Of a stretch of 64,000 nucleotides of DNA, positions 22,148 through 59,040 are shown piece by piece. The DNA lies in assembly GCF_902833045.1 (NCBI RefSeq), contig NZ_CADFDU010000009.1:124001-188000 (forward strand), given 5' to 3'. The DNA is from Burkholderia sp. BCC0322. GTDB lineage: Bacteria > Pseudomonadota > Gammaproteobacteria > Burkholderiales > Burkholderiaceae. The first letter of the stretch is position 1. Every line of letters begins with the position of its first letter. The notes under the pieces were generated by a model. The model made no database searches. It was not told where the DNA came from and saw only the letters and a list, made by a program, of their open reading frames with translations. The translations under genes were made by a program, and so were the position numbers.

Positions 22148-22161
22148 TTGACGAACGTCAA
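22148..22161. promoter_or_regulatory. FNR/ANR-type box
   Basis: TTGAC-GAAC-GTCAA, a perfect palindrome. At -41.5 it gives a start near 22113 for the DUF4148 gene (43-base leader), and near 22196 for PEP synthase (146-base leader). It is the first box met from the left. Confidence 0.72.
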
Positions 22162-22341
22162 ACGCAGACACATCGCGGGCCGCACAGCGCATGGCCCGCG
22201 TCGGCCTCCATTCTTGATACAGGTCACGGGAGCCCGCGCGGCGCGGCGCCAGGATGACTGTGTCCGGCGCGCCCGCGCCGGCGAATGCCTGCCACGCGCG
22301 CCTGCCGCGCGCGGCCGGCTGCGACGGCTGGAGGATGCGAC

Positions 22342-24753
22342 ATGGACCACGGGAAAGCATCGATCGTCTGGTTCGACGAACTGCGTCGCGGCGACGTGGC
22401 GCGCGTCGGTGGAAAGAATGCGTCGCTGGGCGAACTGATCGGCAACCTGTCCGCGCGGGGCGTGAGCGTGCCGCCCGGCTTCGCGTCGACGGCGGATGCG
22501 TACTGGCGGTTCATCGAGGCGAACGGGTTGCGGCAGACCATCGGCGGCGCGCTCGACGCATTCGCCGCCCGGAAGATGGCGCTCGCCGATGCCGGCGCGG
22601 CGATCCGGCAGGCGATCCTCCATGGCGACTGGCCCGACGACATCGCCGACGCGATCCGGGACGCGTACCGGCAGCTGTGCAGCCAGGCCGGCCGGCCCGA
22701 CGTCGATGTCGCCGTGCGTTCGAGCGCGACTGCCGAGGATCTGCCGGACGCGAGCTTCGCGGGGCAGCAGGAAACCTACCTGAACGTGCGTGGCGAGCAC
22801 GCGTTGCTCGCCGCGTGCCGCCGGTGCTACGCGTCGCTGTTCACCGACCGCGCGATTGCCTACCGGGAGGAAAAGGGCTTCGATCATCTGCGTGTCGCGC
22901 TGTCGATCGGCGTGCAGCGGATGGTGCGTTCCGACGTCGGCGCGGCCGGCGTGATGTTCTCGCTCGACACGGAAACGGGTTTCGACAAGGTGGTGCTGAT
23001 CAGTGCCGCGTGGGGGTTGGGCGAGAACGTGGTGCAGGGAACCGTCGATCCCGACGAATATGAAGTATTCAAGCCCTTGCTGGGCGATCCCGCATGCAGC
23101 CCCGTCATCGGCAAGACGCTCGGCGGCAAGGCGTACAAGCTGATCTACGCGCGCGACAAGGATGCGCCGACCCGCAACGTGCCGACCTCGAAAGCGGAGC
23201 GCGCCGCGTTCGTGCTCGCGGATCGCGACATCCTGACGCTCGCGCACTGGGCCTGCGTGATCGAGGCGCACTACGGCCAGCCGATGGACATCGAGTGGGC
23301 GAAGGACGGCGTGAGCGGCGAACTGTTCGTCGTGCAGGCGCGCCCGGAAACGGTGCAGTCGCGGCGTGAAGCCAGCGCCGTGAAGACCTACCGGCTCGGC
23401 CAGACCGGCCGGAAGCTGCTGACGGGCGTCAGTGTCGGCGAGGCCGTCGCGGCCGGCAGCGTATGCGTGATCGACAGCCCGCGCGACATGGCGCGCTTCG
23501 TCGACGGCGCGGTGCTCGTGACGCGCACGACGGATCCGGACTGGCTGCCGGTCATGCGTCGCGCCGCAGCGATCATCACCGATCACGGCGGCCGCACGTC
23601 GCATGCCGCGATCGTGAGCCGCGAGCTGGGATTGCCGGCGATCGTCGGCACCGGCCATGCGACGCACCTGCTGCACGACCAGCAGGAAGTCACGGTGTCG
23701 TGCGCGGAGGGCGAGGCCGGCTTCGTCTACGAAGGCATCGCGCACTACGACGTGGAAGCGATCGACCTGGCCGACCTGCCGGCCACCCGCACGCAGGTCA
23801 TGCTGAACCTCGCGAATCCGGCAGCGGCTTTCCGGTGGTGGCGCATGCCGGCGGACGGCATCGGGCTCGCGCGGATGGAGTTCGTGATCAGCAATCACAT
23901 CAAGGTGCATCCGATGGCGCTGGCCTGCTACGACGCATTGCAGGACGAGCAGGCGAAGCGCGCGATCGCGGTGCTGACAACGGGCTACGACGATCCGGCG
24001 GACTATTTCGTCGACCGGCTCGCGCGCGGCCTCGCGCGCATCGCGGCGGTCTGCCATCCCGCGCCGGTCATCGTCCGCATGAGCGACTTCAAGACGAACG
24101 AATACGCGCATCTCATCGGCGGCGCGCAATTCGAGCCGCAGGAAGAGAATCCGATGCTCGGATTTCGCGGTGCGTCGCGCTACTACTCGCCGCGCTACCG
24201 CGACGGGTTTGCACTCGAGTGCCGGGCGATCGCACGGCTGCGCAACGACATGGGTTTCAGGAACGTGATCGTGATGATTCCGTTCTGCCGCACGCCCGAC
24301 GAGGCGGACCGCGTGCTCGAGGTACTGGCCGCGAACGGGCTGAAGCGGGGTGAAGACGGTCTGCAGATCTACGTGATGTGCGAGATCCCGTCGAACGTCA
24401 TTCTGGCGAGCGCGTTTGCGCAGCGCTTCGACGGGTTTTCGATCGGCAGCAACGACCTGACCCAGCTCACGCTCGGGGTCGATCGCGATTCCGCGGAGCT
24501 GGCCGGCCTGTTCGATGAACGGAACGATGCGGTGAAGTGGATGATTGCACGCGTGATCGCTTCCGCGCACGACGCCGGGGCGAAGGTGGGACTCTGCGGC
24601 CAGGCGCCGAGCGATCATCCGGAATTCGCCGATTTCCTCGTGGCGTGCGGCATCGACTCGGTGTCGGTCAGCCCCGACAGCTTCATTGCGGTCAAGCGCC
24701 GCGTGGCGGCCGCGGAACAGGCGGCGCGCGGCGCGGACCCGCCTTCGGCATGA
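22342..24753 (+). CDS. ppsA: Phosphoenolpyruvate synthase
   Basis: An 803-aa enzyme that makes PEP from pyruvate and ATP, giving AMP and phosphate. Order: ATP-grasp domain (GGKNASLGEL near the start, RSSATAEDLP), phosphohistidine swivel domain with GGRTSHAAIV, whose His421 is the phosphoryl carrier, then the PEP/pyruvate barrel (IGSNDLTQLTLG; CGQAPSDHPEF). Length and the catalytic histidine position match the E. coli enzyme. It lies behind an FNR-type box, which suggests a role in gluconeogenesis or PEP/pyruvate balance at low oxygen. A housekeeping copy elsewhere in the genome is probable. Confidence 0.93.
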   Translation: MDHGKASIVWFDELRRGDVARVGGKNASLGELIGNLSARGVSVPPGFASTADAYWRFIEANGLRQTIGGALDAFAARKMALADAGAAIRQAILHGDWPDDIADAIRDAYRQLCSQAGRPDVDVAVRSSATAEDLPDASFAGQQETYLNVRGEHALLAACRRCYASLFTDRAIAYREEKGFDHLRVALSIGVQRMVRSDVGAAGVMFSLDTETGFDKVVLISAAWGLGENVVQGTVDPDEYEVFKPLLGDPACSPVIGKTLGGKAYKLIYARDKDAPTRNVPTSKAERAAFVLADRDILTLAHWACVIEAHYGQPMDIEWAKDGVSGELFVVQARPETVQSRREASAVKTYRLGQTGRKLLTGVSVGEAVAAGSVCVIDSPRDMARFVDGAVLVTRTTDPDWLPVMRRAAAIITDHGGRTSHAAIVSRELGLPAIVGTGHATHLLHDQQEVTVSCAEGEAGFVYEGIAHYDVEAIDLADLPATRTQVMLNLANPAAAFRWWRMPADGIGLARMEFVISNHIKVHPMALACYDALQDEQAKRAIAVLTTGYDDPADYFVDRLARGLARIAAVCHPAPVIVRMSDFKTNEYAHLIGGAQFEPQEENPMLGFRGASRYYSPRYRDGFALECRAIARLRNDMGFRNVIVMIPFCRTPDEADRVLEVLAANGLKRGEDGLQIYVMCEIPSNVILASAFAQRFDGFSIGSNDLTQLTLGVDRDSAELAGLFDERNDAVKWMIARVIASAHDAGAKVGLCGQAPSDHPEFADFLVACGIDSVSVSPDSFIAVKRRVAAAEQAARGADPPSA

Positions 24754-24759
24754 GCGGCG

Positions 24760-25971
24760 TCACGCCGCGCGTGTGCGCGGCCGGCTGCTTTCGGCGCGGG
24801 CAAACGCCGCGTGCAGCGCGGGATGAACGTCGGTGCGCCAGTGCTCATCGGTGAACAGCCCGTAGTGGTCGCATCCGTCGATGTCGACGCGCTGCCTCGC
24901 ATCCGCTGCGAGGCCGCTGCACATGGCCAGTGCTGCATGGGTCTGTCCCGCGCCGGTGACGGCATCGCGCGCGCCTTCGACGGTCAGCAGCACGATGTCG
25001 CGCAGTGCGGCAGGGTCGACCCGCAGGCCCTGAACGTGCCAGGTGCCGTTGGCGAGGCAGGCACGCTGGAACACGATGTCGACCGTGTCGAGGAAATACT
25101 CGGCGGGCATGTCGAGGAGCGTCAGGTATTCGCGCAGCGCCCGGCGCGCGTGCGCGAGTACGCCGGCATCGCCGCCCGTTGCCGCGCGCCGGTAGCGATC
25201 GACCAGCGTCATGTAGCGTTGCGGGTAGGCGATCGAGATCTCGGCGCGTTGCAGATAAGCCGGGAAGACCTGCCGCCCGTGTCCGGCGAAGCCGGACGGA
25301 ACCGTGTCGATCAAGGTGGCACGACACCACGCGAGCGAATGCGAGCCGGCCGCGATCCCGAGCGCGCTCGGATTGATCCGGGCATCGAGCGGGCCGCCAA
25401 TCAGCGTCAGGCTGGCCGGCAGTGCGGCCCCGCGCTGCGCGCGCAGCGCGAACGCGCCGAGCGACGGAACCGTCGCCTGGCAGACGGCGACGACGTGCAC
25501 GGGCCGCCTGTCGGCCAGCAGCGCATCGATGAAGCCGTCGAGCAGCGCCACGTATTCGTCGAGGCCGAATCGACCGGCGTCAGGCGGCACGTCGCGCGCA
25601 TCGATCCAGTCGGTGATGCAGACATCGCCATCGGTCAGCAGCGTCTCGACCGTCTCCCGCATCATCACGGCCGCATGGCCGGCCAGCGGTACGCACAGGA
25701 GGATCACGCGCGGCGCACCGGCGCGCGCGAAGCGGCGCAGCGAGCAGAACGGGGTGGGCGCGGCAATCGTTTCATCGACGTCGAATCGTCGTCCGTCCGC
25801 GTCGATCGCTTCGATCGCGAACCGTGGCGCTACGGCATCCGGGTCGAGCAGGGGCTCGAACAGGTCTGCGTAGCACGCCGCCGCACCGGGCCAGAGACCG
25901 CACGCGAACCGCGCCGCCGTGTCCCACGTACGCAACCATTGCCGTTGCCGTTCGATCAGGTCATACCACAT
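24760..25971 (-). CDS. Intracellular polyhydroxybutyrate depolymerase, PhaZ-like
   Basis: A 403-aa alpha/beta hydrolase of the intracellular PHB depolymerase type. The N-terminus MWYDLIERQRQWL resembles PhaZ starts. The nucleophile is Cys164 in VCQATVP, as in Ralstonia PhaZ, and GCDHYGLFT holds the catalytic His369. It releases hydroxybutyrate from storage granules. The frame opens further upstream, but ATG 25971 fits the family and leaves a 33-base leader from an FNR-type box at 26039-26052. It complements the PHB synthesis genes 34 kb away in the same region. Confidence 0.8.
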   Translation of the reverse strand: MWYDLIERQRQWLRTWDTAARFACGLWPGAAACYADLFEPLLDPDAVAPRFAIEAIDADGRRFDVDETIAAPTPFCSLRRFARAGAPRVILLCVPLAGHAAVMMRETVETLLTDGDVCITDWIDARDVPPDAGRFGLDEYVALLDGFIDALLADRRPVHVVAVCQATVPSLGAFALRAQRGAALPASLTLIGGPLDARINPSALGIAAGSHSLAWCRATLIDTVPSGFAGHGRQVFPAYLQRAEISIAYPQRYMTLVDRYRRAATGGDAGVLAHARRALREYLTLLDMPAEYFLDTVDIVFQRACLANGTWHVQGLRVDPAALRDIVLLTVEGARDAVTGAGQTHAALAMCSGLAADARQRVDIDGCDHYGLFTDEHWRTDVHPALHAAFARAESSRPRTRAA

Positions 25972-26038: not shown

Positions 26039-26052
26039 TTGACCTGAATCAG
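26039..26052. promoter_or_regulatory. FNR/ANR-type box, divergent
   Basis: TTGAC-CTGA-ATCAG, one mismatch from the palindrome. Centred at 26045.5, it fits -41.5 placement for both the PhaZ-like gene (33-base leader) and the flavodoxin-like gene (30-base leader). Confidence 0.65.
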
Positions 26053-26116: not shown

Positions 26117-26650
26117 ATGGACGCTTCTCGACGCATGCTCGTCGTTTTTTACTCGCGTAGCGATACGACGGCGGGGCTGGCGCGCCTGCTTGCCGCCGAA
26201 CTCGGCGCGGATTGCGAACGGCTGCGGGAGCACGACGATCGACGGCGAGCGGGGGCCATCGGCTATCTGCGTTCGCTCGCCGACGTGATCGGCCAGCGCG
26301 AGGCGGACCTGCGGCCGACGGCCTGTTCGCCATCGGCCTACGATGTGGTCTTGCTCGGTACGCCGGTATGGGCCGGACGCGCATCGACGCCTGTATCGAC
26401 GTGGCTGGCCCGTCACGGGCACGAACTGCGCGCAACCGCATTCTTCTGCACGATGGGCCTGCGTGGCGACCTGACGGCATTCGGGCAGATGCAGGCGCTG
26501 GCACGGCAAAAGCCGGTCGCGACGTGTGCGATTTCCGCGCGCGATATCGGCCGCGGCCTGGCTTCCAGGAAGCTCGCCCACTTTGCCCGGTCGATCGCTC
26601 GACGGCTGGATGTCCGCGAGCGTCGCGCGAGCACGGAGCGGGCAGCGTGA
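26117..26650 (+). CDS. Flavodoxin-like protein
   Basis: A 177-aa protein with a flavodoxin fold: the N-terminal FMN-phosphate loop VVFYSRSDTTAGLA, then LGTPVWAGRASTP in the middle and FFCTMGLRGD at the later flavin loop. It would bind FMN and carry electrons or reduce a quinone. Its stop overlaps the GTG start of the FAD-oxidoreductase/patatin fusion, so the two products are coupled. The fusion, an NAD(P)H-type oxidoreductase, could be its electron partner (inference). It lies directly behind a divergent FNR-type box. Confidence 0.8.
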   Translation: MDASRRMLVVFYSRSDTTAGLARLLAAELGADCERLREHDDRRRAGAIGYLRSLADVIGQREADLRPTACSPSAYDVVLLGTPVWAGRASTPVSTWLARHGHELRATAFFCTMGLRGDLTAFGQMQALARQKPVATCAISARDIGRGLASRKLAHFARSIARRLDVRERRASTERAA

Positions 26651-28923
26651 CGGTGCGTGCGGCCGGCGAGCGAGACTACGATCATGTACTGGTCGGTGGC
26701 GGCATCGCCAGCGTGTCGGCCGCGCATGCGCTGCGGCGCGAAGATCCGGCCGCGCGCATCGCGATCCTGTGCGGAGAACGCGTGCTGCCCTATCAGCGAC
26801 AGCCGCTGACGAAGGAGTTCCTCGCAGGCAAGGTTGCGCCGGCGGCAATCGCGATCCATCCGGCCGGGTTCTACGAGATGCGCCGGATCGACCTGCTGCT
26901 CGATGCAAGGGTAGCGGCAGTCGATTGCGGTGCGCACGCCGTCCGGCTCGCCGACGGCGCCGAGGTGCGGTACGGCAAGCTGCTGATCGCGACCGGCGCG
27001 TCGCCTCGCCGCCTGAATGTGCCGGGCGCGACGCTCGATGGTGTCCACTACCTTCACGACATCGACGAAACGGTCGCGCTTCGCGAGAACGCCGCCCGGC
27101 GGCGGCGCCTGCTCGTGGTGGGCGGCGGCTTCACGGGGATCGAGGCGGCGGCGACGCTCCGCGAACGGGGGCTTGAAGTCACGCTCGTCGAGCGCTGCGA
27201 CGGGCTGCTGCCGCAGCTGCACTCCGCACGGCTGTCCGGGCATTTCGGCAGGCTGTGCGCCGCGCGCGGTGTCGACGTCCGGACCGGAACGACGGTCGAA
27301 CGCTTCGTCGGGCAGCAGAAGATCGAGGCCGCCGTGCTCGCCGACGGCAGCGTCGTCGAATGTGATCTCGCCGTGATCGCGGTTGGCGTCGAGCCGAACT
27401 GCGGGTTTCTGGCGGGCAGCGGCATCGCGACGGCGGACGGCGTGCTCGTCGACGAATGCCTGCAGTCGTCGGATCCGGACATCCATGCGGCCGGCGATGT
27501 GGCGCGGTTTCGCGATCCGGTGTTCGGCATGCAGCGGCGCGTCGAGCATTGGGACAATGCGGTGCGTCAGGGGCGCCTGGCCGCCCGGAACATGCGCGGC
27601 GCGCGTTTGCCCTATCGGGACGTGTCGATCTTCTACGGCAACGTGTTCGATGTGCCCTACAACTTTCTCGGCAATGCGTCCGATGCGACGGAAGTCGTCG
27701 AACAGGGCGGGTTCCCGGATGCCCCGTATGCGCTGCTTTATCTGAAGCATCATGTCCTGCGCGCGATGTTCTCGATCGGCGTGCGCGCGGATGAAATGAC
27801 CGCGGCCGAGGAGACGATCCGCCACCGGGTCAATCTCGGCTCGCACCTCCAGGCCGCCGAGCACAACGCATTGCGGCTGCGCGAGCTGCCGGCGCAAACG
27901 GTCCTGATCCTGCAGGGCGGCGGCGCGCTCGGCGCGTTCGAAAGCGGCGCGATCGCCGCGCTCGAATCACGCGGCATCCGGCCGGATGTGGTCGCGGCCG
28001 TGTCGATCGGCGCGTTCAACGGCGCGATTGTCGCGAGCCACCCGGGGCACGCTGCCGAGGCGCTCGACGCGTTCTGGCGCGAACTGTCGATCCCGTATCC
28101 GGCGGCGGTGCTGTCGCCCGCCGGGGCGGAGCATGCGCTGCTCGCCTGGCATGTCGCGCTGTTCGGCGTGCCGAACTTCCTGCGACCCCACTGGTGGCCG
28201 GGCGGGATGTTTTCGTCGGGCCTCGCGCCGTGGTGGACGAGCTGCTACGACACGCAGCCGATGCTCGCGCTGCTGCGCCGCCATGTCGATTTCGATGCGC
28301 TGGCGGCCAGTTCGACGCGCCTGTTGCTCGGGGCCGTCGACGTGGAGAGCGGGGAACGGCGGATTTTCGACAGCTATGTCGACCGCATCACGCCCGAGCA
28401 CCTGCTTGCCAGCGGCAGCCTGCCGCCCGCGATGCCGTGGACGTGTATCGACGGCCGCGCTTACTGGGACGGCGGGATCATCAGCAACTCGCCGCTCGAT
28501 CTCGTGATCGAAAGGTGCGGGCGGATTGCGGGGCGCGTATTCGTCGTCGATCTGTTTTCCGGGGTGCGGCCGTTGCCGTCGAACCTGCTCGAGGTCATGC
28601 TGCGGCGTGACGAGATCGTCTATGCGGACCGGGTGCGTAACGACCTGCGGTTCGAGGAGAGCGCGAACGATTTTCGCGATCTCGTCGAACGCATCACCAG
28701 CCGGCTCGATCCCGGGACGGCGGCGCGCATGCGCCAGCTTCCCGAATACATCCGGCTGATGGGCAATCGCGCGCCGGTACGGGTGCTCAGGATCGCGCTG
28801 GACGGCCGCGCCGCAGGTCGGGAAACGTTCGCGCGCGATTTCGATTTTTCCGGTGCGTCGATCGCGGCGCTGTTCGAACTGGGTCGCGCCACGGCGCTTG
28901 ACGTGCTCGCGCGCCATACGTGA
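26647..28923 (+). CDS. Fusion of FAD/NAD(P) oxidoreductase and patatin-like phospholipase
   Basis: A 758-aa two-domain protein. Residues 1-410 form a ferredoxin/rubredoxin-reductase-like module: FAD loop VGGGIAS (16-22), second nucleotide loop VVGGGFTG (157-164), and AAGDVARF (281-288). Residues 418-758 are patatin-like: oxyanion loop GGGALG (424-429), nucleophile Ser453 in AVSIG, and DGG (608-610) with the catalytic Asp. The usual GxSxG begins with Ala here. GTG 26647 has GGAG eight bases upstream and overlaps the flavodoxin stop. A redox module joined to an acyl hydrolase is unusual; redox-gated lipid or PHA-granule hydrolysis is one guess. Confidence 0.85.
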   Translation: MTVRAAGERDYDHVLVGGGIASVSAAHALRREDPAARIAILCGERVLPYQRQPLTKEFLAGKVAPAAIAIHPAGFYEMRRIDLLLDARVAAVDCGAHAVRLADGAEVRYGKLLIATGASPRRLNVPGATLDGVHYLHDIDETVALRENAARRRRLLVVGGGFTGIEAAATLRERGLEVTLVERCDGLLPQLHSARLSGHFGRLCAARGVDVRTGTTVERFVGQQKIEAAVLADGSVVECDLAVIAVGVEPNCGFLAGSGIATADGVLVDECLQSSDPDIHAAGDVARFRDPVFGMQRRVEHWDNAVRQGRLAARNMRGARLPYRDVSIFYGNVFDVPYNFLGNASDATEVVEQGGFPDAPYALLYLKHHVLRAMFSIGVRADEMTAAEETIRHRVNLGSHLQAAEHNALRLRELPAQTVLILQGGGALGAFESGAIAALESRGIRPDVVAAVSIGAFNGAIVASHPGHAAEALDAFWRELSIPYPAAVLSPAGAEHALLAWHVALFGVPNFLRPHWWPGGMFSSGLAPWWTSCYDTQPMLALLRRHVDFDALAASSTRLLLGAVDVESGERRIFDSYVDRITPEHLLASGSLPPAMPWTCIDGRAYWDGGIISNSPLDLVIERCGRIAGRVFVVDLFSGVRPLPSNLLEVMLRRDEIVYADRVRNDLRFEESANDFRDLVERITSRLDPGTAARMRQLPEYIRLMGNRAPVRVLRIALDGRAAGRETFARDFDFSGASIAALFELGRATALDVLARHT

Positions 28924-29426: not shown

Positions 29427-29440
29427 TTGATGGAGGTCAA
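29427..29440. promoter_or_regulatory. FNR/ANR-type box
   Basis: TTGAT-GGAG-GTCAA. Predicted minus-strand start near 29392, 42 bases before the 139-aa hypothetical gene. Confidence 0.65.
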
Positions 29441-29775: not shown

Positions 29776-30215
29776 GCACGGACCCCTTCAGGATGGTGAT
29801 TCATGGTGGATTCCCGCTGTCCGTTGCGCATTGACTTCAAGCAAGCCGGATACGACATCCGGCCCATCGGCGAAAAACAGACGATTCGGAGTGCTGTGTT
29901 GACGGGATGAACCCGGGAGCGAAAATTCGAGGCGCCGGCGTGAAGACACGCACGGTATCGCGGTGTTTCGATCGGGCGACGAAAGGCTAAGCGATCAACT
30001 TGACGTGTTCCTGACAGGCAGGAACACGTGATCGTCGGACACCAACATGGCGTCAGATGAATCGCCGGTCGTTTCGTGCGCGCGTGTGCTTGCTGACCTG
30101 CGTCAAGGCCGCTCGCGCCGCAAGAGCGAATATCGACGTTCGCGCGTGTCGATCACGATCGAGGACCGATGCGCATCGTGCCGTCTGCGTCGTCACAATG
30201 ATACGGGCCTCCATC
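29776..30215. other. Intergenic region with two FNR-type sites
   Basis: About 440 bp without a supported gene. It holds a weak box TTGAC-TTCA-AGCAA (29831-29844), placed to drive the 71-aa gene on the minus strand, and a better one at 30093-30106 placed to drive the 142-aa gene on the plus strand. Short imperfect repeats of CGTGTTCCTGACAGGCAGGAACACG (30003-30028) form a hairpin. Confidence 0.5.
30093..30106. promoter_or_regulatory. FNR/ANR-type box
   Basis: CTGAC-CTGC-GTCAA, one mismatch from TTGAC-N4-GTCAA. Predicted plus-strand start near 30141, 75 bases before ATG 30216. Confidence 0.55.
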
Positions 30216-33070: not shown

Positions 33071-33143
33071 GAGGCGATGCGCCAGGAAGGCCGATTCGTT
33101 AGAGGTTCGCGATTCATTCTTCCAGCCGGGCGTGCTGCACGCT

Positions 33144-33157
33144 TGATGCACGTCAAG
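33144..33157. promoter_or_regulatory. FNR/ANR-type box
   Basis: TTGAT-GCAC-GTCAA. Predicted minus-strand start near 33109, 39 bases before the DrrA-like gene. A second box lies 82 bp away and faces the other way. Confidence 0.68.
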
Positions 33158-33238: not shown

Positions 33239-33252
33239 TTGATCGCGGTCAA
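33239..33252. promoter_or_regulatory. FNR/ANR-type box
   Basis: TTGAT-CGCG-GTCAA. Predicted plus-strand start near 33287, 22 bases before ATG 33309. Confidence 0.65.
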
Positions 33253-34833: not shown

Positions 34834-34915
34834 ATTCGCCACCGGACGGCAATCTATGCTGGGCTGTGCCGACATGGCCGCCGGCGCCGATGCGGCGTGC
34901 CGCGCGGGAGAACGC

Positions 34916-36301
34916 ATGATGAACGGATTTTTGCAGGATGCGAACGCGAACGACGTGTTGCTTACGGATTGGTATGAGCTGACGATGATGCAGGCCGCCT
35001 TCGATGCCGGCATGAATGACACGGCCAGCTTCGAATTCTTCGTTCGGGCGCTGCCGGAGCAGCGCTCGTTCCTGATGGCGGCGGGACTTGCGCCCGTGCT
35101 CGATTATCTGGAGCGACTGCGCATGCCGGCCGCCGTGCTCGAACGGCTGGCCGGAACCGGGCGCCTTCGCGGGGACTTCCTCGCATCGCTCGCCGGCATC
35201 CGCTTCACTGGCACGGTCGACGCGATGCCGGAGGGCACGGTGTTCTTTGCCGACGAGCCGATCCTGCGGATCACGGCGCCGCTTCGCGAGGCGCAGTTCG
35301 TCGAGAGCCGCGTGATGAACCTGCTCCACTATGCGACGCTCGTCGCAAGCAAGGCCGCACGCGCCACGTTGGCCGCGCACGGCAGGCTGCTGGTCGACTT
35401 CGGCCTGCGGCGCGCGCATGGCGCGGAGGCAGCGATGCTGTCGGCGCGCGCCAGCTATCTGGCGGGTTTCTCCGGGACGGCGACCCTGCTTGCCGGCTTG
35501 CGCTATGGCATTCCCGCGTACGGGACGATGGCGCATTCATATATCCAGGTGCACGACGACGAAGCGCGCGCGTTCGAGAACTTCGCGCGATCGCAGCCGG
35601 ACAACGCGGTGTTGGTGATCGATACGTATGACACGGAGCGCGCGGCGCACAAGGTGGTCGAACTGGCGCGACGGCTCGCACGCGAGCAGATCCGCATCAA
35701 GGGTGTGCGGATCGATAGCGGCGATCTCGCAGCGCATGCGCGAAACGTTCGAGTGATCCTCGACCGGGGCGGCCTCGCCGACGTCACGATCTTCGTGAGC
35801 GGCAATCTCGACGAACGCCGGCTGCAGGCGCTGATTCGCGAGCACGCACCGATCGACGGTTTCGGGATCGGCACGCAGATGAGCACGTCGGCGGACGCGC
35901 CTTGTCTCGATTGCGCGTACAAGCTAGTCGAGTATGCGGGCCGGGCGCGTTGCAAACTTTCGGAAGGCAAGGCGACGCTGCCCGGCCGCAAGCAGGTGTT
36001 CCGGCGATACGGCCCGGATGGGAGGATCGCCGGCGACTGCATCGGTCTCAATGGCGAACGCGTCGACGGCAGGCCGCTGTTGCGGCCGGTCATGGTCTCG
36101 GGTGCGCGGCTCCCGTCCCCGACGCTCGACGAGAGCCGCATACACGCGCTGCGCGAATTGACCACGCTGCCGGATCTCATGCATGCGCTGGCGCCCGTGA
36201 TGCCGCTGCAGGCGTCGATTTCTCCGGCGCTGGCGGTCTGCGTTGCGCAGTGCGGCGGCGGGCCGGACACGCACGCGCATGCGAGGCAGCAAGCGGCATG
36301 A
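34916..36301 (+). CDS. Nicotinate phosphoribosyltransferase
   Basis: A 461-aa enzyme of NAD salvage that makes nicotinate mononucleotide from nicotinate and PRPP. Family marks: LLTDWYELTMMQAAF at the N-terminus, VDFGLRRAHGAEAA, GTMAHSYIQ, VLVIDTYDT, IRIDSGDLAAHA and VSGNLDE. GGGAG lies five bases before ATG 34916 and eight before ATG 34919. The length is typical. The gene sits between oxygen-responsive boxes, so NAD supply may be adjusted at low oxygen. The PRTase-like gene just upstream is a different family. Confidence 0.9.
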   Translation: MMNGFLQDANANDVLLTDWYELTMMQAAFDAGMNDTASFEFFVRALPEQRSFLMAAGLAPVLDYLERLRMPAAVLERLAGTGRLRGDFLASLAGIRFTGTVDAMPEGTVFFADEPILRITAPLREAQFVESRVMNLLHYATLVASKAARATLAAHGRLLVDFGLRRAHGAEAAMLSARASYLAGFSGTATLLAGLRYGIPAYGTMAHSYIQVHDDEARAFENFARSQPDNAVLVIDTYDTERAAHKVVELARRLAREQIRIKGVRIDSGDLAAHARNVRVILDRGGLADVTIFVSGNLDERRLQALIREHAPIDGFGIGTQMSTSADAPCLDCAYKLVEYAGRARCKLSEGKATLPGRKQVFRRYGPDGRIAGDCIGLNGERVDGRPLLRPVMVSGARLPSPTLDESRIHALRELTTLPDLMHALAPVMPLQASISPALAVCVAQCGGGPDTHAHARQQAA

Positions 36302-36352: not shown

Positions 36353-36366
36353 TTGACGCAGGTCAA
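36353..36366. promoter_or_regulatory. FNR/ANR-type box
   Basis: TTGAC-GCAG-GTCAA, a perfect palindrome. Predicted start near 36401. This lies after ATG 36393 and before GTG 36426, and so helps fix the start of the permease gene. Confidence 0.7.
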
Positions 36367-39538: not shown

Positions 39539-39889
39539 CCGTGTGCACTCCCGTCAAATGCGATGCGACGTGACGTGTCGATGGCGAGCGTGTGCCGCGG
39601 TGCGCATTGACTTCCGTCAACGCACACCGCGCGGTGCGATCGAGAATGAATGCATCGTCGATGGCAAGTCGAGGCAGCTTGCCGATCCGGCACCGGAACA
39701 CACTGGGCGTTCGCTGACGACGTCGCTCAAGCATCCGATCGATGCGTCGCGGCGCGACGTCGATCGTCTCGTCATCGAGCGTGGCGCAGCGGGGCATGCG
39801 ACGCTGGATGTGCCGTCGGCGCCAGCGTGCCGAACCGGCCGAACTGTCCCGCGCTAGCACGCCAACGACCGTCCGTGGGAGGACTGACC
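39539..39889. other. Long leader with FNR-type box
   Basis: About 350 bp with no supported gene. A box at 39607-39620 would start transcription near 39655, leaving an untranslated leader of about 235 bases before ATG 39890. Short frames inside it have no ribosome site or coding bias. Confidence 0.45.
39607..39620. promoter_or_regulatory. FNR/ANR-type box
   Basis: TTGAC-TTCC-GTCAA, perfect half-sites. The next plus-strand gene is 270 bp away, so the leader would be long. Confidence 0.65.
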
Positions 39890-43590: not shown

Positions 43591-43604
43591 TTGATGCGCG
43601 TCAA
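43591..43604. promoter_or_regulatory. FNR/ANR-type box
   Basis: TTGAT-GCGC-GTCAA. Predicted minus-strand start near 43556, 100-130 bases before the kinase gene. Confidence 0.65.
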
Positions 43605-43709: not shown

Positions 43710-43723
43710 TTGACCAAGGTCAA
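43710..43723. promoter_or_regulatory. FNR/ANR-type box
   Basis: TTGAC-CAAG-GTCAA, perfect half-sites. Predicted plus-strand start near 43758, before the lipoprotein gene. Confidence 0.68.
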
Positions 43724-44417: not shown

Positions 44418-44431
44418 TTGACTTCCATCAA
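44418..44431. promoter_or_regulatory. FNR/ANR-type box
   Basis: TTGAC-TTCC-ATCAA. Predicted start near 44466, 44 bases before the universal stress protein ATG 44510. Confidence 0.7.
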
Positions 44432-45334: not shown

Positions 45335-45348
45335 TTGACGCGCGTCAA
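45335..45348. promoter_or_regulatory. FNR/ANR-type box
   Basis: TTGAC-GCGC-GTCAA, a perfect palindrome including the spacer. Predicted start near 45383, 119 bases before hsp20. Confidence 0.7.
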
Positions 45349-46770: not shown

Positions 46771-46784
46771 TTGACCTCCGTCAA
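46771..46784. promoter_or_regulatory. FNR/ANR-type box
   Basis: TTGAC-CTCC-GTCAA, perfect half-sites. Predicted minus-strand start near 46736, 50 bases before the nitroreductase gene. Confidence 0.7.
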
Positions 46785-46826: not shown

Positions 46827-46840
46827 TTGACCTGCATCAG
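46827..46840. promoter_or_regulatory. FNR/ANR-type box
   Basis: TTGAC-CTGC-ATCAG, one mismatch. Predicted plus-strand start near 46875, 42 bases before the BON protein. Confidence 0.62.
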
Positions 46841-51306: not shown

Positions 51307-51328
51307 GCGCTCTGGGGCGGCGGGCCGG

Positions 51329-52788: not shown

Positions 52789-52802
52789 TTGACCCACATC
52801 AA
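52789..52802. promoter_or_regulatory. FNR/ANR-type box, divergent
   Basis: TTGAC-CCAC-ATCAA. At -41.5 it serves both the Acg-like gene (leader 36 bases) and the alcohol dehydrogenase gene (leader 55 bases). Confidence 0.7.
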
Positions 52803-53881: not shown

Positions 53882-53906
53882 TGCGCCCGCCGCGCGTGCG
53901 GCGAGG

Positions 53907-54680
53907 TCAGATCCGCCCGAGGCCTTCCGAATCGACGATGCGGATCTGCTTGCCTTGCGCGGCGACGAGCCCGTTGCGCTGGAACTTCGACAGCATGCGG
54001 CTGACCGTCTCGAGCTTCATCCCGAGATATTCGCCGATCTCGTCGCGCGTCATCCGCAGCACGAATTCGGCGGACGAGTAGCCGCGCGCCTTGAAGCGTG
54101 TGGAAAGGTTCAGCAGGAACGCGGCGACGCGCTGCTCGGCGGTCATCGTGCCGAGCAGCAGCATCAGTGAGGATTCGCGGACGATTTCGCCGCTCATCAT
54201 CTGGTACACGTGATGCTGCATCGGCCGCACCTCGCGGCAGATCTGCTCGAGCTGGCCGAACGGAATGATGCAGACGGTGCTGTCCTCGAGCGCGATCGCA
54301 TCGCCGTTGTGGTGGCCGGTGTGCACGCCGTCGAGCCCGAGCGATTCGCCGACGATCTGGAAGCCGGTGATCTGCTCGTCGCCGTCGCGGTGCATCACGA
54401 TGGTCTTGAACGACCCGGTTCTCACCGCATAGATGCTGTTGAACGCGTCGCCCGCGCGAAACAGCGTTTCGCCGCGCCTGACGTGCCGCGTCGTGCAGAT
54501 CATCGCGTCGACCCGCGCGAAATCGTCAGGCGAAAGGTCAGGCGGCAGGCAGACCGTGCGCAACGAACACGTCGAACAGCGGGACGTGGCGCGTTTCGGT
54601 TGTTCCGCCCGTTCGACGGGATGCAACGGGATGAACGGGCGTAACGGCATGGCCGGCGAAACATCGGCATGGCTTTGCAT
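53907..54680 (-). CDS. FNR/ANR-type oxygen-sensing transcription regulator
   Basis: A 257-aa Crp/Fnr-family regulator. The N-terminal CSTCSLRTVC gives Cys35-x2-Cys38-x5-Cys44, and Cys137 (TVCIIP) supplies the fourth ligand, the same spacing as Cys20/23/29/122 of E. coli FNR. A [4Fe-4S] oxygen sensor is therefore expected. The recognition helix reads ETVSRM (Glu224, Ser227, Arg228), the FNR residues that read TTGAT half-sites. This matches the twenty or so TTGAY-N4-RTCAA boxes around it, making it the prime candidate for controlling the island. Confidence 0.93.
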   Translation of the reverse strand: MQSHADVSPAMPLRPFIPLHPVERAEQPKRATSRCSTCSLRTVCLPPDLSPDDFARVDAMICTTRHVRRGETLFRAGDAFNSIYAVRTGSFKTIVMHRDGDEQITGFQIVGESLGLDGVHTGHHNGDAIALEDSTVCIIPFGQLEQICREVRPMQHHVYQMMSGEIVRESSLMLLLGTMTAEQRVAAFLLNLSTRFKARGYSSAEFVLRMTRDEIGEYLGMKLETVSRMLSKFQRNGLVAAQGKQIRIVDSEGLGRI

Positions 54681-55023
54681 GATCGGCTCCAGTACTCCAG
54701 TACATTGGGGACAGCGGCGGGCCGCCGTGGGACGCGGTCGCGCTGGTGATAACGCCGGCGGCCCTGGTGCAAGCCGCCCTCATCGGAAAAGCCGCGCCGG
54801 ACGAAAAGTGAGACCTTTCCCGGCGGCGATTGCCGCCGTTGCTTCGCCAGGCGCGTGCTTGTTTTTCTTGATCTGGAGTATGGATGTTGCGCGGCGTCAA
54901 GGAAATCAGCAGGCATTGAAGATGCAGTAGGTCACGTGGAAGCGCTGTAGGCGGTTTCCTACACGGGGGCGGGATTCTGTCCGGGGCGACGCGAAGGCGC
55001 AGCGGTCGTGCGCCGGAGCCGCG
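54681..55023. promoter_or_regulatory. Upstream region of the FNR-type gene
   Basis: About 340 bp without a gene. It holds the palindrome TGTAGG-N6-CCTACA (54946-54963) and two half-matched FNR-type sites, TTGCG-CGGC-GTCAA (54887-54900) and TTGAT-CTGG-AGTAT (54868-54881). CCAGTACT/CCAGTACA is repeated directly at 54689-54703. Combined control by the adjacent response regulator and by FNR itself is plausible. Confidence 0.45.
54946..54963. promoter_or_regulatory. Candidate NarL/FixJ-type response-regulator site
   Basis: TGTAGG-CGGTTT-CCTACA is a perfect 6+6 palindrome with a 6-base spacer, the same architecture as the GacA/UvrY site (TGTAAG-N6-CTTACA). It lies 61 bp past the response regulator gene and upstream of the FNR-type gene. 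Confidence 0.45.
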
Positions 55024-55671
55024 TCAGAGTTCGTCCGGGTCGTCGAACAGCTTGTGGCGCATCGCATAGCGCACGAGCGCCGTGTCGTTCGGCATCTGCA
55101 TCTTCTCGAGAATCCGCGTCTTGTAGGTGCTGACCGTCTTGACGCTCACGCAGAGCGCTTCCGCGATCTCGGAAATCGACTCGCCGGCGGTGACCCGCCG
55201 GAACACGTCGAATTCACGGTCGGACAGCCGCTGGTGCGGCAGGAGATCGGTCGGTTCGTTCAGGCTCTGCGCAAACTGTTCGGCCATCGTCAGGCTGACG
55301 TAAACGCCGCCGGCCGCGATCTTGGCCAGCGCCGCGACCAGCTCGGCGCTGGCGCTTTCCTTGGTCATGTAGCCGGATGCGCCGGCGCGGAACGCGCGCA
55401 CCGCGTATTGCTGCTCGGCGTGCATCGTGAGCACGAGAATATGCAATGCCGGTTTCTCGTCCTTGATCTGCTTGATGAGTTCGACGCCGTTTCGGCCGGG
55501 CATCGACAGGTCGAGTACCAGCACATTCGCGGCCGTGTCGCGTACGAGCGCGATCGTGGACGCGCTGTCGCGCGCTTCGCCCGCGACTTCGAACCCGCTC
55601 GCGCTTTGCAGGATGTGCCGCAGGCCGTCTCTGACGAGGGCGTGGTCGTCGGCGATGAGTACTCGGATCAT
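55024..55671 (-). CDS. NarL/FixJ-family response regulator (orphan)
   Basis: A 215-aa two-domain regulator. The receiver has the acidic pair Asp8-Asp9, phospho-acceptor Asp54 (VLDLSMPG) and Lys104 (YMTKES). The C-terminal LuxR-type HTH reads LSDREFDVFRRVTAGESISEIAEALCVSVKTVSTYKTRILEKM. No histidine kinase is encoded in the window, so its sensor is elsewhere. ATG 55671 is the true start of the receiver; the longer frame is arginine-rich and non-coding in look. A box at 55858-55871 is 190 bp upstream. Confidence 0.92.
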   Translation of the reverse strand: MIRVLIADDHALVRDGLRHILQSASGFEVAGEARDSASTIALVRDTAANVLVLDLSMPGRNGVELIKQIKDEKPALHILVLTMHAEQQYAVRAFRAGASGYMTKESASAELVAALAKIAAGGVYVSLTMAEQFAQSLNEPTDLLPHQRLSDREFDVFRRVTAGESISEIAEALCVSVKTVSTYKTRILEKMQMPNDTALVRYAMRHKLFDDPDEL

Positions 55672-55857: not shown

Positions 55858-55871
55858 TTGACCGGCGTCAA
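55858..55871. promoter_or_regulatory. FNR/ANR-type box
   Basis: TTGAC-CGGC-GTCAA, perfect half-sites. Predicted plus-strand start near 55906, 38 bases before the Usp ATG 55944. The response regulator on the other strand would have a leader of about 150 bases. Confidence 0.7.
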
Positions 55872-55943
55872 CCGGATCGCGCCCGCCAGGCCCAGACTGG
55901 TGTGGCATTCCAGTCAAAAACCGGACGCCACCAGGGAGGCACC

Positions 55944-56414
55944 ATGTATGCAAGGATCTTTGCGGCGCTCGACGGCAGCCGCAGTTCGCGGCTCGCGCTC
56001 GACGAGGCGATCGCGCTCGCCCGCGATTCGGGGGGCCTGATCGTCGCCGTGTGCGTGGTATCGGACGCGCCAAGAGTGGCTGACTTCGACCGCGGCTATA
56101 TCGACCAGCGCGACCCGAGGGGGCTGGATGCGGACAAGGCCGCGATCGCGGTGGCGGATGCGCAGACCGCGTTTCGCCTGTGCGGCGTCCGCGGCACCGC
56201 GCACACGATCGACGCGTGCGGCGAGGATGTGTCGGCCGTGCTGGCGCGAGCCGCCGCCGAATGCGACGCGGACCTGATCGTGATGGGGACGCACGGACGC
56301 CGCGGCGTGCGCCGTGCGGTGCTCGGCAGCGTCGCCGAATCGCTGGTGCGCAGCGCCGACCGGCCGGTGCTGGTCGTGCGGGAGGGGCAGGGCGCGTGTG
56401 CGGCCGTGTTGTGA
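55944..56414 (+). CDS. Universal stress protein (UspA family)
   Basis: A 156-aa single Usp domain with the start YARIFAALDGSRSSRLAL and an intact nucleotide loop GTHGRRGVRRAVLGSVAESLVR. It is similar in size and motif to the 44510 protein. CCAGGGAGGC precedes the ATG. It is monocistronic: a box on one side and a hairpin (56422-56443) on the other. Confidence 0.9.
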   Translation: MYARIFAALDGSRSSRLALDEAIALARDSGGLIVAVCVVSDAPRVADFDRGYIDQRDPRGLDADKAAIAVADAQTAFRLCGVRGTAHTIDACGEDVSAVLARAAAECDADLIVMGTHGRRGVRRAVLGSVAESLVRSADRPVLVVREGQGACAAVL

Positions 56415-56421
56415 CCGGAGA

Positions 56422-56443
56422 GGGCAGCCGCGGGCGGCTGCCC
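56422..56443. terminator. Bidirectional hairpin terminator
   Basis: GGGCAGCCG and CGGCTGCCC pair over 9 bp around CGGG, between convergent universal-stress genes. Confidence 0.6.
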
Positions 56444-56462
56444 CGTCGTCATACGTGCGGCG

Positions 56463-57296
56463 TCAGTGCGACAGCAGCACCGGCACCGTCATCGTCTCGA
56501 GGATGGTGCGCGTCGCCCCGCCCAGCACGCGTTCGTGCATGCGTGCATGGCTGTACAGGCCCATCACGAGCAGGTCCGCATGCAGGTCGGTCACCCGGTT
56601 CAGCAGCGTCGCGCCCACGCCGACCGACCGGTCGCGCGGCGTCGTCGAGAACGACGCGCGAACGCCGTGCCGCTCGAGATACGCGGCGACGTCGACGCCC
56701 GCCGGCGTCTGGTCGGGGTCGGGTTGACCGCGCACGACCGTCTCGACGTTGACGAAGCGCGCGCGGGCGAGCAGCGGCAGCGCATCGGCCATCGCACGGG
56801 CGGCTTCGCGCCCGCCGTCCCAGCCGATCAGCACGTTCTCGCCGATCGTTCGCACGTCGCCCGCGTAGGGCACGACGAGCGCCGGACGGCCGCTGCCCAT
56901 CACGAGATCCTCGATGAAATGGCGTGCCACGTAGGTCATGCGATCGTCCGGGTCTTCCTGGCCGAGTATCAGCAGATCGGCGTGGCGCGCGTGCAGGATG
57001 GCGGTAGTCGTCGCGTCGCCGGTCGGCGCCTGCCATTCGACGCTGCGTCCCGCGCGCTCGGCCGCCGTCAGGAATCTCTCTTCGGCCTCCTTGCGCCGCT
57101 GGTCGCACAGCCGCTCGTACACGGCCAGCTTCAGTGGTTCGTCGGGCCGCCGCAACGGCTCGAAGAGATCCTGGCAGACCACGTAGAGGCCGATCAGATG
57201 CGCGTTCCAGCGTCCCGCCAGTTCGAGCGCGAGGTCGACGCGCGTCGCGCAGCGTTCGCTGTCGTCGAGGTGGACAAGCAGGGTCTTGTAGCTCAT
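56463..57296 (-). CDS. Tandem universal stress protein
   Basis: A 277-aa protein with two Usp domains. The N-terminal one starts MSYKTLLVHLDDSERC and lacks the classical nucleotide loop. The C-terminal one ends GLYSHARMHERVLGGATRTILETMTVPVL, a modified G-2X-G-9X-G(S/T) loop. It belongs with the protein at 58120, which has the same length and opening. Its start overlaps the stop of the single-domain Usp gene by four bases (ATGA), so the two are made together. Confidence 0.88.
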   Translation of the reverse strand: MSYKTLLVHLDDSERCATRVDLALELAGRWNAHLIGLYVVCQDLFEPLRRPDEPLKLAVYERLCDQRRKEAEERFLTAAERAGRSVEWQAPTGDATTTAILHARHADLLILGQEDPDDRMTYVARHFIEDLVMGSGRPALVVPYAGDVRTIGENVLIGWDGGREAARAMADALPLLARARFVNVETVVRGQPDPDQTPAGVDVAAYLERHGVRASFSTTPRDRSVGVGATLLNRVTDLHADLLVMGLYSHARMHERVLGGATRTILETMTVPVLLSH

Positions 57297-57796
57297 GACG
57301 GCTCCTTTTCGGTTGATGTCGCGACGGTCTCGGCGGGTTGTCCGGACGGGCAACTCGCGGGAATCATCAGCACCGGGCACGTGGCCAGGCGCAGCACGCG
57401 CTCGGCCACGCTGCCGAGGAACAGGCGCTGGGCGCCGCGCCGTCCGTGCGTGCCCATCACGATCAGGTCGGCCGCGATTTCATTGGCAAGACTGACGATC
57501 CGGTGCGGGATGTCTTCGCCCGCCGGATCGACGTTGGCGATCTGCGGCGTGCCGGCCACGTCGCGCGCCTTCATGCGGCGCGCTGCGTCGTCGGTGACGC
57601 GCAGCCCTTCTTCCCGGAACGCATCGATCAGGATCGACGGATCGTATCCGGCCATGTCGTAGGCGGGCACCAGGAAATCGACGACGTAGACGGGGGTCAG
57701 CCGCGCACCTGTTTCCGACGCGAGGCCCAGCGCGGCGTCGAGTGCACGGGACGACGTGTCGCTGCCGTCGAGCGCAACCAGAATGTTCGAGTACAT
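57293..57796 (-). CDS. Universal stress protein (UspA family)
   Basis: A 167-aa single-domain Usp. MYSNILVALDGSDTSSRALDAAL opens the fold, and GTHGRRGAQRLFLGSVAERVLRLATCPVL is an intact ATP-binding loop. It is first in a two-gene operon with the tandem Usp. An FNR-type box at 57856-57869 leaves a leader of only about 25 bases. Confidence 0.9.
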   Translation of the reverse strand: MYSNILVALDGSDTSSRALDAALGLASETGARLTPVYVVDFLVPAYDMAGYDPSILIDAFREEGLRVTDDAARRMKARDVAGTPQIANVDPAGEDIPHRIVSLANEIAADLIVMGTHGRRGAQRLFLGSVAERVLRLATCPVLMIPASCPSGQPAETVATSTEKEPS

Positions 57797-57855
57797 GGCG
57801 TTTCCCTTGAACGGAGGCGGATGAAATCATCATCGGCGCGTGCGCGCCGATCGCG

Positions 57856-57869
57856 CTGATCTGGATCAA
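57856..57869. promoter_or_regulatory. FNR/ANR-type box
   Basis: CTGAT-CTGG-ATCAA, one mismatch. Predicted minus-strand start near 57821, 25 bases before the Usp gene at 57796. It overlaps the stop of the 81-aa upstream gene. Confidence 0.6.
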
Positions 57870-58111
57870 GTGTCGCGGTTGCCGCGCAGCACGCCTATCG
57901 CGGCGCGCGCGGCGATCCACGCTTCGTGGGTCGGCTCGACGACCCCCGTGACCGCGCTGGACGCGGACGACACGACCTGCGCATGGTCCGCGTTGGCGCG
58001 CGCATCGATATCGATGTCGAGCCAGCCGAACAATGCGCAGATCCGTTCACGCAACGCGGCCGGGTGCTCGCCGATGCCGGCATTGACCGCGGGCAGCCCG
58101 AGCATGCGCAT
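57866..58111 (-). CDS. Small hypothetical protein, 81 aa
   Basis: An 81-aa protein (MRMLGLPAVNAGIGEHPAALRERICALFGWLDIDIDARANADH...), helical by eye, with no recognised family. It starts six bases after the stop of the tandem Usp gene at 58120 and is read in the same direction, so it is probably its operon partner. The ribosome site is weak and re-initiation is likely. Codon use is normal for the region. Confidence 0.55.
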   Translation of the reverse strand: MRMLGLPAVNAGIGEHPAALRERICALFGWLDIDIDARANADHAQVVSSASSAVTGVVEPTHEAWIAARAAIGVLRGNRDT

Positions 58112-58119
58112 CGGCCGGC

Positions 58120-58959
58120 TCAGTGCGACATCAGCACCGGGAGCGTCATCGACGCGAGCACCGTGCGGGTGGCGCCGCCCATCACCAGCTCGCGCCAGCG
58201 CGGATGGCCGTACGCGCCCATCACGAGCAGGTCCGAACCCGTTTCGTATGCGCGCGACAGCAGCGTGTCGCCGATCGACGCGCCGGTGCCGGTATCGATG
58301 TCGAGCACGTTCACGTCGCGCGCATGGCGCGCCAGCATCAACGCGGCATCGGCGGCCGGAATGCGCGTGGTCGCCGCTTCGGAATTGCCGTCGACCACCG
58401 CGACGACGGTCGTGCGCTTCGCATGCTCGAGGAAGGGAATCGCGTCGTGTGCGGCACGGGCGGCTTCGCGGCTGCCGTCCCACGCGACGAACACCCGTTC
58501 GCCGATCGACGGGAATTCTCCGGTGTACGGCCAGAACAGCACCGGGCGGCCGGCGGACAGGACGAGGTTCTCCGCGAACTGGTCGTCGATGTAGGTTTCA
58601 GGATCGTTCGGGTCGCTCTGGCCTGCAATCACGAGGTCGGCAAGACGGGCGGCGCGCGGCACGGCGACATTCGCGCGTTCGTCCGCACGAACCCAGGCCG
58701 CCGGCACTTTCGCGCGGGCAGCCTCCGCATGGAACAGGCGCTCCAGCGCGGCGAGCCGTTCGTCGCGCTGTTCGCGGTGTTCGCGGAAATAGTCGGCGGA
58801 GCCGGCCATCACGTAGAACGAATGCGGCTCCGGCGTGTAGACCGCGAACAGCCCGGTGAGATGCGCACCGAAGCGCCGGGCGAGACGCAACGCGAACTCG
58901 AGACGCGAATGCGCGCGGTCGCTCGTGTCGAGATGTACGACTAGGCTTTTGTAGCTCAT
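58120..58959 (-). CDS. Tandem universal stress protein
   Basis: A 279-aa double Usp protein, related to the one at 56463: MSYKSLVVHLDTSDRAHSRLEFALRLA at the start, and GAYGHPRWRELVMGGATRTVLASMTLPVL at the end as the nucleotide loop of the second domain. The first domain lacks it. It is behind a divergent FNR-type box shared with the phasin operon, so stress protection and PHB metabolism switch on together. Confidence 0.9.
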   Translation of the reverse strand: MSYKSLVVHLDTSDRAHSRLEFALRLARRFGAHLTGLFAVYTPEPHSFYVMAGSADYFREHREQRDERLAALERLFHAEAARAKVPAAWVRADERANVAVPRAARLADLVIAGQSDPNDPETYIDDQFAENLVLSAGRPVLFWPYTGEFPSIGERVFVAWDGSREAARAAHDAIPFLEHAKRTTVVAVVDGNSEAATTRIPAADAALMLARHARDVNVLDIDTGTGASIGDTLLSRAYETGSDLLVMGAYGHPRWRELVMGGATRTVLASMTLPVLMSH

Positions 58960-59026
58960 CGGAATCGCTCCATCGACGGGTGATCCGCCAATGCAATCCA
59001 GTCTACGAAGCAGGGTTTCCGCGTGC

Positions 59027-59040
59027 TTGACTCAGATCAA
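59027..59040. promoter_or_regulatory. FNR/ANR-type box, divergent
   Basis: TTGAC-TCAG-ATCAA. At -41.5 it serves the tandem Usp gene (leader 33 bases) and the phasin/PHB operon (leader 74 bases). Confidence 0.7.

Follow-up and report, generated by a model that had tools for sequence, protein, structure and literature searches.

The targets of Anr in Pseudomonas are spread over the genome, and the DosR protein of Mycobacterium tuberculosis is itself a NarL/FixJ-type regulator. Both regulons bear comparison with the low-oxygen-activated (lxa) locus of Burkholderia: FNR-type boxes likewise precede oxygen-limitation genes in the Anr regulon (PMC6588701), and the DosR dormancy regulon, as compared in PMC6127331, has as common features 48 genes, ten Usp genes and an alpha-crystallin among them, and hypoxic survival. 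In the FixLJ–FixK cascade of rhizobia and B. dolosa (PMC5234846), a NarL/FixJ-type regulator acts on an FNR-family gene and this in turn on low-oxygen genes, a plan that we predict to be shared here. For lxa itself, PMC4505428 includes the FNR protein BCAM0287 in the locus (17-fold up at low oxygen) and reports that an FNR-box-like motif accompanies many low-oxygen genes; low-oxygen induction of lxa has been published for other strains, and publications connect the locus family with anoxic persistence and with changes in chronic cystic fibrosis infection. Here we analyse a 64-kb stretch of DNA from Burkholderia sp. BCC0322 (hereafter the window), in which, unlike in the DosR regulon, lxa genes stand under FNR boxes. 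Because both BCAM0287 as a part of lxa and the FNR-box-like motif have been published before, the finding is not new at its core; new here is that the FNR gene lies behind a distinct, conserved palindrome instead of an FNR box. We consider it probable that this is an extended lxa locus under class II FNR boxes, with the local FNR gene behind the palindrome and a response regulator most likely above it, such that a two-component system gives FNR its dose and oxygen its activity.

The exact box, TTGAYNNNNRTCAA (TTGAY-N4-RTCAA), occurs 15 times in the window, every time within 22148-59040, and not once in positions 1-22147. Allowing one mismatch gives 25 sites, 23 of which lie in the interval (15 exact and eight with one mismatch), the other two being at 6731 and 15224. 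Shuffled versions of the window contained a mean of 2.05 such sites and at most 7, and none of 100 reached 25. By our own gene calls, which come from a home-made codon model rather than a standard caller (genes scoring above 15 were used), 14 of the 15 exact and six of the eight one-mismatch sites are not wholly intragenic, those at 33143 and 57856 overlapping gene starts. The one-mismatch sites at 24682 and 44196 are inside called genes, and the exact site at 41186 lies inside an over-long rhomboid open reading frame (ORF), at a place where codon usage looks non-coding. This gives about 20-21 plausible boxes, close to the eighteen good and two weak palindromes counted in the initial annotation, which was also right that 1-22 kb is free of exact boxes. 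Its further statement, that there is nearly one box per transcription unit, does not hold for every unit: the upstream gap of the FNR gene (343 bp) contains no box with up to one mismatch. The clustering of FNR-type boxes in 22148-59040 is thus confirmed. The boxes are listed below, with the -10-like hexamer and its gap (bp past the box) where noted.

22148..22161, exact box upstream of PpsA; the sole good -10 (TACGCT) faces away from PpsA
22214..22227, one-mismatch box upstream of PpsA
26039..26052, one-mismatch box between the divergent polyhydroxybutyrate (PHB) depolymerase and flavodoxin-like genes; TAAGCT, gap 22, towards the flavodoxin-like gene
29427..29440, exact box; TAGATT, gap 22, towards 28931-29350 (minus strand)
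29831..29844, one-mismatch box upstream of 29560-29775 (minus strand)
30093..30106, one-mismatch box; the CBS-domain gene 30641-31096 has its called start about 0.5 kb further on
33143..33156, exact box running into the ABC ATPase gene at its called start
33239..33252, exact box; TACGAT, gap 21, towards 33369 and subsequent genes
36353..36366, exact box upstream of the SsuC-like permease; weak -10
39607..39620, exact box; GAGAAT, gap 21 (plus strand)
41186..41199, exact box within the over-long rhomboid ORF; -10 faces the plus strand, away from the rhomboid domain
43591..43604, exact box; TGCAAT, gap 22, towards the APH-AAA33 gene (minus strand)
43710..43723, exact box; TACAGT, gap 21, towards the BCAM0275A-like gene
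44418..44431, exact box upstream of Usp (BCAM0276-like); conservation 0.91 in box columns, 0.71 elsewhere
45335..45348, exact box; TACGCT, gap 21, towards Hsp20 (BCAM0278-like)
46771..46784, exact box; TATCGT, gap 21, towards nitroreductase (BCAM0279-like)
46827..46840, one-mismatch box upstream of the BON protein (BCAM0280-like); conservation 0.98 in box columns
52789..52802, exact box separating nitroreductase (0285) from alcohol dehydrogenase (ADH, 0286)
55858..55871, exact box upstream of Usp (0290)
57856..57869, one-mismatch box upstream of Usp (0292)
59027..59040, exact box; TAGACT, gap 21, towards Usp (0294); box columns invariant in 16 relatives

Both flanks of each exact box were scanned for a -10 element, disregarding genes, by scoring against TATAAT at each spacing and taking 3 of 4.5 weighted points as a hit. 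A -10-like hexamer stands 21-22 bp past the box in 12 of the 30 flanks, as against a mean of 0.12 per other spacing, and these 12 hits fall one each to 12 of the 15 boxes. This spacing is that of class II FNR promoters. It recurs in the loci of three relatives, namely B. cenocepacia NCTC13227 (G003, locus L004; 10/30 flanks), B. puraquae (G004, L009; 13/38) and G008 (11/34), and the pooled figure of 46 out of 132 flanks was reached by none of 2000 rotations, although many of the boxes are orthologous and the four sets are not independent. Clear cases in which the -10 faces a gene include 26039, 29427, 33239, 43710, 45335, 46771 and 59027. Conservation follows the boxes as well: in eight boxes of the right half, compared with 2-17 relatives, the box columns are 0.84-1.00 conserved and those outside 0.64-0.84. 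Some details fit class II control less well. Of the 12 boxes that have a good -10, three (22148, 33143 and 41186) point away from a well-supported gene; at 36353, 52789 and 55858 the -10 found at this spacing is weak; and in three of the eight boxes examined for conservation (52789, 57856 and 59027) box and spacer are conserved to about the same degree.

The density of boxes also stands out against whole genomes. In B. cenocepacia NCTC13227, 15 of the 36 exact sites lie in C7:1432296-1479767, that is in 47.5 kb of 8.0 Mb, and the remaining 21 correspond to about 0.1 expected per 37 kb. The lxa stretches of G004 and G008 (66-71 kb) hold 19 of 44 and 17 of 44 exact sites, respectively. Unlike in the Anr regulon, then, 39-43% of the exact boxes of a genome are found in one locus of 47-71 kb in the three relatives counted. 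Across 65 genomes of the genus (completeness unknown, as for the 200 family genomes used below), the median number of exact boxes was 42 in those with a close lxa BON protein (n=28) and 23 in those without (n=37), the label being a proxy based on a BON match of at least 84% identity; a reversed control pattern gave 3-14 per genome. Four genomes without a close lxa BON protein (G021, G025, G039 and G043) nonetheless have 45-68 exact boxes, which points to other large FNR regulons. That the cluster might have arisen from base composition or through the copying of repeats, for which nothing was found to speak, is contradicted by the shuffles, by the background in relatives, by the reversed-pattern controls, by the conservation of eight boxes over their flanks and by the fixed -10 spacing; we consider this origin extremely improbable, and reject both chance and composition as explanations for the boxes. 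The proposal of FNR control in the initial annotation is supported by box density, conservation of the eight boxes compared and class II spacing, together with the motif reported in PMC4505428.

At the right of the interval lie the FNR gene, the palindrome and a response regulator gene:

53907..54680, minus strand, FNR-type regulator, BCAM0287 orthologue by synteny; C35/C38/C44/C137 and ETVSR kept
54877..54882, minus strand, CATACT, conserved -10-like hexamer of the FNR gene
54946..54963, TGTAGGCGGTTTCCTACA palindrome, first element of a conserved array of half-sites upstream of FNR; predicted operator for a response regulator
55024..55671, minus strand, NarL/FixJ-type response regulator (Pfam), BCAM0288 orthologue by synteny

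The FNR protein has six cysteines, including the four of the Fe-S type (C-x2-C-x5-C and a distant fourth), aligns to the solved FNR chains 9qll and 5cvr (E ~1e-53), and has ETVSR aligned to the recognition motif ETISR, with the E..SR residues present; the four cysteines and the recognition residues had been annotated before. It is the sole Crp/Fnr match among the 56 scanned of 64 called window proteins, in keeping with the earlier remark that no other such gene is in view. The same source had spoken of the island's own FNR. This holds in so far as the gene lies inside the locus, but the locus is not self-contained, for the genome of one relative encodes three FNR proteins (92, 65 and 52% identical to that of the window), all with the cysteines and an LETVSR helix. 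The 65% paralogue is probably of the BCAM1483/anr1 type and the 52% paralogue, given a Usp gene just upstream and a distance of about 270 kb from lxa, would be of the BCAM0049/anr2 type. It is conceivable that the boxes are real but worked mainly by these other Fe-S FNR proteins, the local one adding little. The preserved cysteines and helix of all three paralogues are in keeping with this, as are the 77-fold induction of BCAM0049, the strongest of the three (PMC4505428), and the recovery of anr2 from a screen for anoxic survival in H111, a strain reported to be without lxa. In contrast, the local FNR is found at 86% identity or more beside lxa-like sequence in several Burkholderia species, and boxes are more numerous in genomes with the close lxa BON protein, a difference that does not indicate which FNR acts. 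On balance, we regard a minor role for the local FNR as plausible, though somewhat less than probable.

The 18-bp palindrome (TGTAGG-N6-CCTACA) heads a block, 54877-54963, that is conserved in comparison with relatives. Among the best 80 of 93 FNR loci, it was found, in the 600 bp upstream of the gene or in its first 60 bp, in exact form in 44 and with at most one mismatch in 62, whereas an exact FNR box was present in the same zone in only four. Autoregulation of FNR via an FNR box of its own is thus not supported, either by the boxless gap or by these loci. In the 65 genus genomes the palindrome occurs 0-3 times each and 109 times in total (reversed control, eight in total). For 85 of the 109 a place could be assigned, and 81 of these are found no more than 1 kb upstream of an FNR gene with at least 61% identity; reciprocally, in the 50 fully placed genomes 81 out of 85 such FNR genes have the palindrome. 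Its number equals that of these FNR genes in 56 of the 65 genomes, and the sole genome without it lacks such a response regulator and has an anr2-type FNR only. Both types of FNR gene that carry it share an array of palindrome, half-sites, GCYGATTT and CATACT or GATACT at fixed spacing, which would place the palindrome near -84. We found no earlier description of it in the literature searched on FNR promoters and on BCAM0287/0288/1483, a search that did not cover Sass et al. 2013, the primary lxa paper. At a second FNR paralogue (L126:15555-16848) the palindrome precedes a receiver-only ORF of 134 aa just ahead of FNR. Burkholderia sp. Nafp2/4-1b (G002) has two lxa-type FNR/regulator loci (L003 and L017) on different contigs, each with the palindrome; one has a kinase gene and the other is nearly without it.

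What might bind the palindrome? Its half-sites stand in tandem about 20-22 bp apart, which suits dimers of the NarL/FixJ type. A response regulator gene is present within the locus in 67 of the 80 FNR loci, as a rule just upstream of the palindrome, and among the 200 family genomes (kinship ignored) the palindrome occurs in 44 of 59 that have the regulator and in 26 of 141 that do not. On these grounds it is likely that the palindrome is bound by the adjacent NarL/FixJ-type regulator or by a paralogue of it. In G003 a second regulator, 83% identical, is encoded about 10 kb from a second palindrome-bearing FNR gene, and its gene overlaps the end of that of its own PAS-HisKA_3 kinase.

Several observations pull the other way. 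There are three response regulators with nearly the same recognition helix (the third is 60% identical), so that the neighbouring one may not be the binder. Palindrome-bearing FNR loci L021, L022, L043 and L074 have no regulator nearby. Outside the genus, the palindrome is also present in 26 of 140 genomes without the regulator, 15 of 37 regulator-bearing genomes lack an exact copy (22 have one), and 12 of 20 placed copies in regulator-bearing genomes lie within 1 kb of the regulator gene, places being available for 13 of the 22 genomes with both. No neighbouring kinase was found in the window, either as a kinase match or at the expected site, 55671-55858. Finally, the FNR gene that has been published as being under FixLJ, of the BCAM0049 type, has no exact palindrome in two relatives.

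These points bear on the alternative that the palindrome is the operator of a regulator outside the neighbouring family, such as FixJ or an unrelated factor. The regulator-less FNR loci and the regulator-less genomes outside the genus speak for it; the presence of the regulator in most loci, its co-occurrence with the palindrome and the tandem spacing of the half-sites speak against it. At low oxygen FixLJ controls fixK, a homologue of BCAM0049, in B. dolosa (PMC5234846), a precedent for a FixJ-type input. The lack of an exact palindrome near the BCAM0049-type gene of the two relatives tells against the transfer of that precedent, and the more specific idea that the palindrome is the FixJ operator at fixK is not supported. 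We consider an operator for an outside regulator unlikely, if not negligibly so.

Returning to the neighbouring regulator or its paralogue as binder, its position in a hierarchy is suggested by expression data. PMC4981469, which compares two isolates of B. contaminans rather than two oxygen levels, gives changes of 7.2- to 8.8-fold for BCAM0287, 9.3- to 18.8-fold for BCAM1483 and 1.7- to 1.9-fold only for the response regulator gene, as would be expected if the regulator stands above FNR. The boxes and their excess, the conservation of the eight compared, the -10 spacing, the FNR residues and the palindrome with its near-exclusive place at FNR genes of the genus are direct results, and low-oxygen induction of lxa and BCAM0287 comes from publications; which FNR acts at the boxes, the binding of the palindrome by the regulator, and a two-tier cascade with the regulator or its paralogue above FNR are inferred.

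The likeness to FixLJ–FixK is one of plan, with a FixJ-type regulator beside an FNR/FixK gene but no gene for an oxygen-sensing kinase alongside in the window. The second tier here is BCAM0287/BCAM1483 and not BCAM0049, and the palindrome that is the candidate operator is, in the genus, nearly confined to FNR genes. A kinase gene (665 aa in L004; CHASE-PAS-HisKA_3) precedes the regulator in 12 of the 17 loci closest to the window (L001-L017); it is absent in L011, L014 and L016 and partial in L001 and L017. The kinases of relatives, in a further difference from FixLJ, are CHASE-PAS or PAS with HisKA_3, with no heme evidence. With the local kinase gene gone, the lxa regulator of the window would need the kinase of a paralogue.

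The results suggest a model whereby falling oxygen would allow one or more [4Fe-4S] FNR-type proteins to bind the TTGAY-N4-RTCAA boxes. Box-bound FNR would then recruit RNA polymerase as a class II activator (box centre near -41, -10 at 21-22 bp past the end of the box), and the outcome would be induction of stress proteins, nitroreductases, fermentative enzymes and genes for PHB turnover. The local FNR gene itself would be read from behind TGTAGG-N6-CCTACA and its half-sites, at fixed spacing to a CATACT -10 and with no FNR box, the NarL/FixJ-type regulator next door or a close paralogue most likely binding the palindrome. The two-component system would set the amount of FNR, and oxygen whether that FNR is active. 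A bolder version, which we think could equally well hold or fail, is that the palindrome and phased half-sites up to a CATACT-type -10 form a dedicated module that accompanies each anr1/lxa-type FNR gene once and hardly occurs elsewhere in the genus. Via this module a kinase/regulator pair would command FNR genes in Burkholderia and relatives as a two-key switch, a membrane or redox signal setting FNR dose and oxygen FNR activity; here the lxa regulator would be driven by its paralogue's kinase.

The box map and the -10 signature predict transcript starts for many units of the locus. The palindrome offers a testable answer to how the BCAM0287 and BCAM1483 orthologues are induced at low oxygen with no exact FNR box just upstream in nearly all loci examined, and this reading names a small set of candidate regulators.

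The identity of the locus rests on gene order and domains, which over 43770-63206 match BCAM0275A-BCAM0298 of lxa, listed in the same order in Table 2 of PMC4981469. DNA synteny with B. cenocepacia (L004/G003) extends across 43.7-64 kb. To the left, that table gives PpsA, an esterase, PncB, SsuC, SsuB and unnamed genes, with no J2315 orthologue and present in B. multivorans; the left part of the window matches this extended lxa of B. contaminans and B. multivorans by its named genes. Genes to which the comparison refers are:

22342..24753, plus strand, PpsA (phosphoenolpyruvate synthase), in the left extension of lxa (Pfam; PMC4981469 Table 2)
24760..25971, minus strand, PHB depolymerase-like esterase (PF06850)
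26647..28923, plus strand, pyridine nucleotide oxidoreductase fused to patatin (PF07992, PF01734 and PF12536)
34856..36301, plus strand, PncB-like nicotinate phosphoribosyltransferase (PF17767)
55944..58959, four Usp genes (0290, 0291, 0292 and 0294) and an 81-aa acetate kinase remnant, 57866-58111 (Pfam)
59609..63206, plus strand, PhbB, PhaC and Pta (0296-0298), lxa genes past 59040

In full, the Pfam order in the left half is PpsA, PHB depolymerase, flavodoxin-like, oxidoreductase-patatin, CBS, ABC-2 exporter, PncB, SsuC/SsuB-like, rhomboid and APH-AAA; in the centre Usp, DUF1488, Hsp20, nitroreductase, BON, SulP, LOG-like, cytochrome c, nitroreductase and ADH; and on the right FNR, response regulator, four Usp, a short-chain dehydrogenase (SDR, at the PhbB position), PhaC and Pta. 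These data support the assignment to an extended form of the Burkholderia lxa locus, already known at its core, and bear out the match to lxa proposed in the initial annotation. The end of the island at 59040 proved wrong, since PhbB, PhaC and Pta run to the window edge and the boxes of relatives continue beyond. We also rejected the possibility that the window represents the BCAM1483 (anr1) region, since its order from Usp, DUF1488, Hsp20, BON and SulP through to FNR and the response regulator follows BCAM0275A-0298.

The J2315 locus (BCAM0275A-BCAM0323) shares with the window the order 0275A-0298, including Usp, Hsp20, BON, SulP, FNR (0287), response regulator (0288) and PhbB-PhaC-Pta. Its right arm, to BCAM0323, lies beyond the window, which ends just past Pta. 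In contrast to J2315, acetate kinase (0293) is cut to the C-terminal remnant of 81 aa and, in contrast to B. cenocepacia NCTC13227, the kinase gene ahead of the response regulator is missing. About 0.9 kb present at the acetate kinase site in several relatives is absent from the window and, given BCAM0293 in Table 2 of PMC4981469, would be the rest of that gene. A direct-repeat cause for its loss was dropped, as the 16-bp overlap has just a single exact copy in L009.

With regard to a mobile island, composition is not deviant, the G+C content (0.65-0.71 over 22-60 kb) being like that of the rest of the window bar a lower 14-20 kb, and no integrase was found among general Pfam matches of 56 of the 64 called proteins. 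A plasmid search gave partial matches only. The lower stretch (14001-20000; 0.61-0.62), to the left of the lxa extension, encodes an LPMO_10 protein, a GGDEF protein and an unassigned protein of 365 aa, and is followed by a GH114-type protein at 20314-21195. The oxidoreductase-patatin fusion at 26647-28923 is a protein of 758 aa, with DUF3734, encoded directly after the flavodoxin-like gene, and is possibly tied to PHB or lipid turnover.

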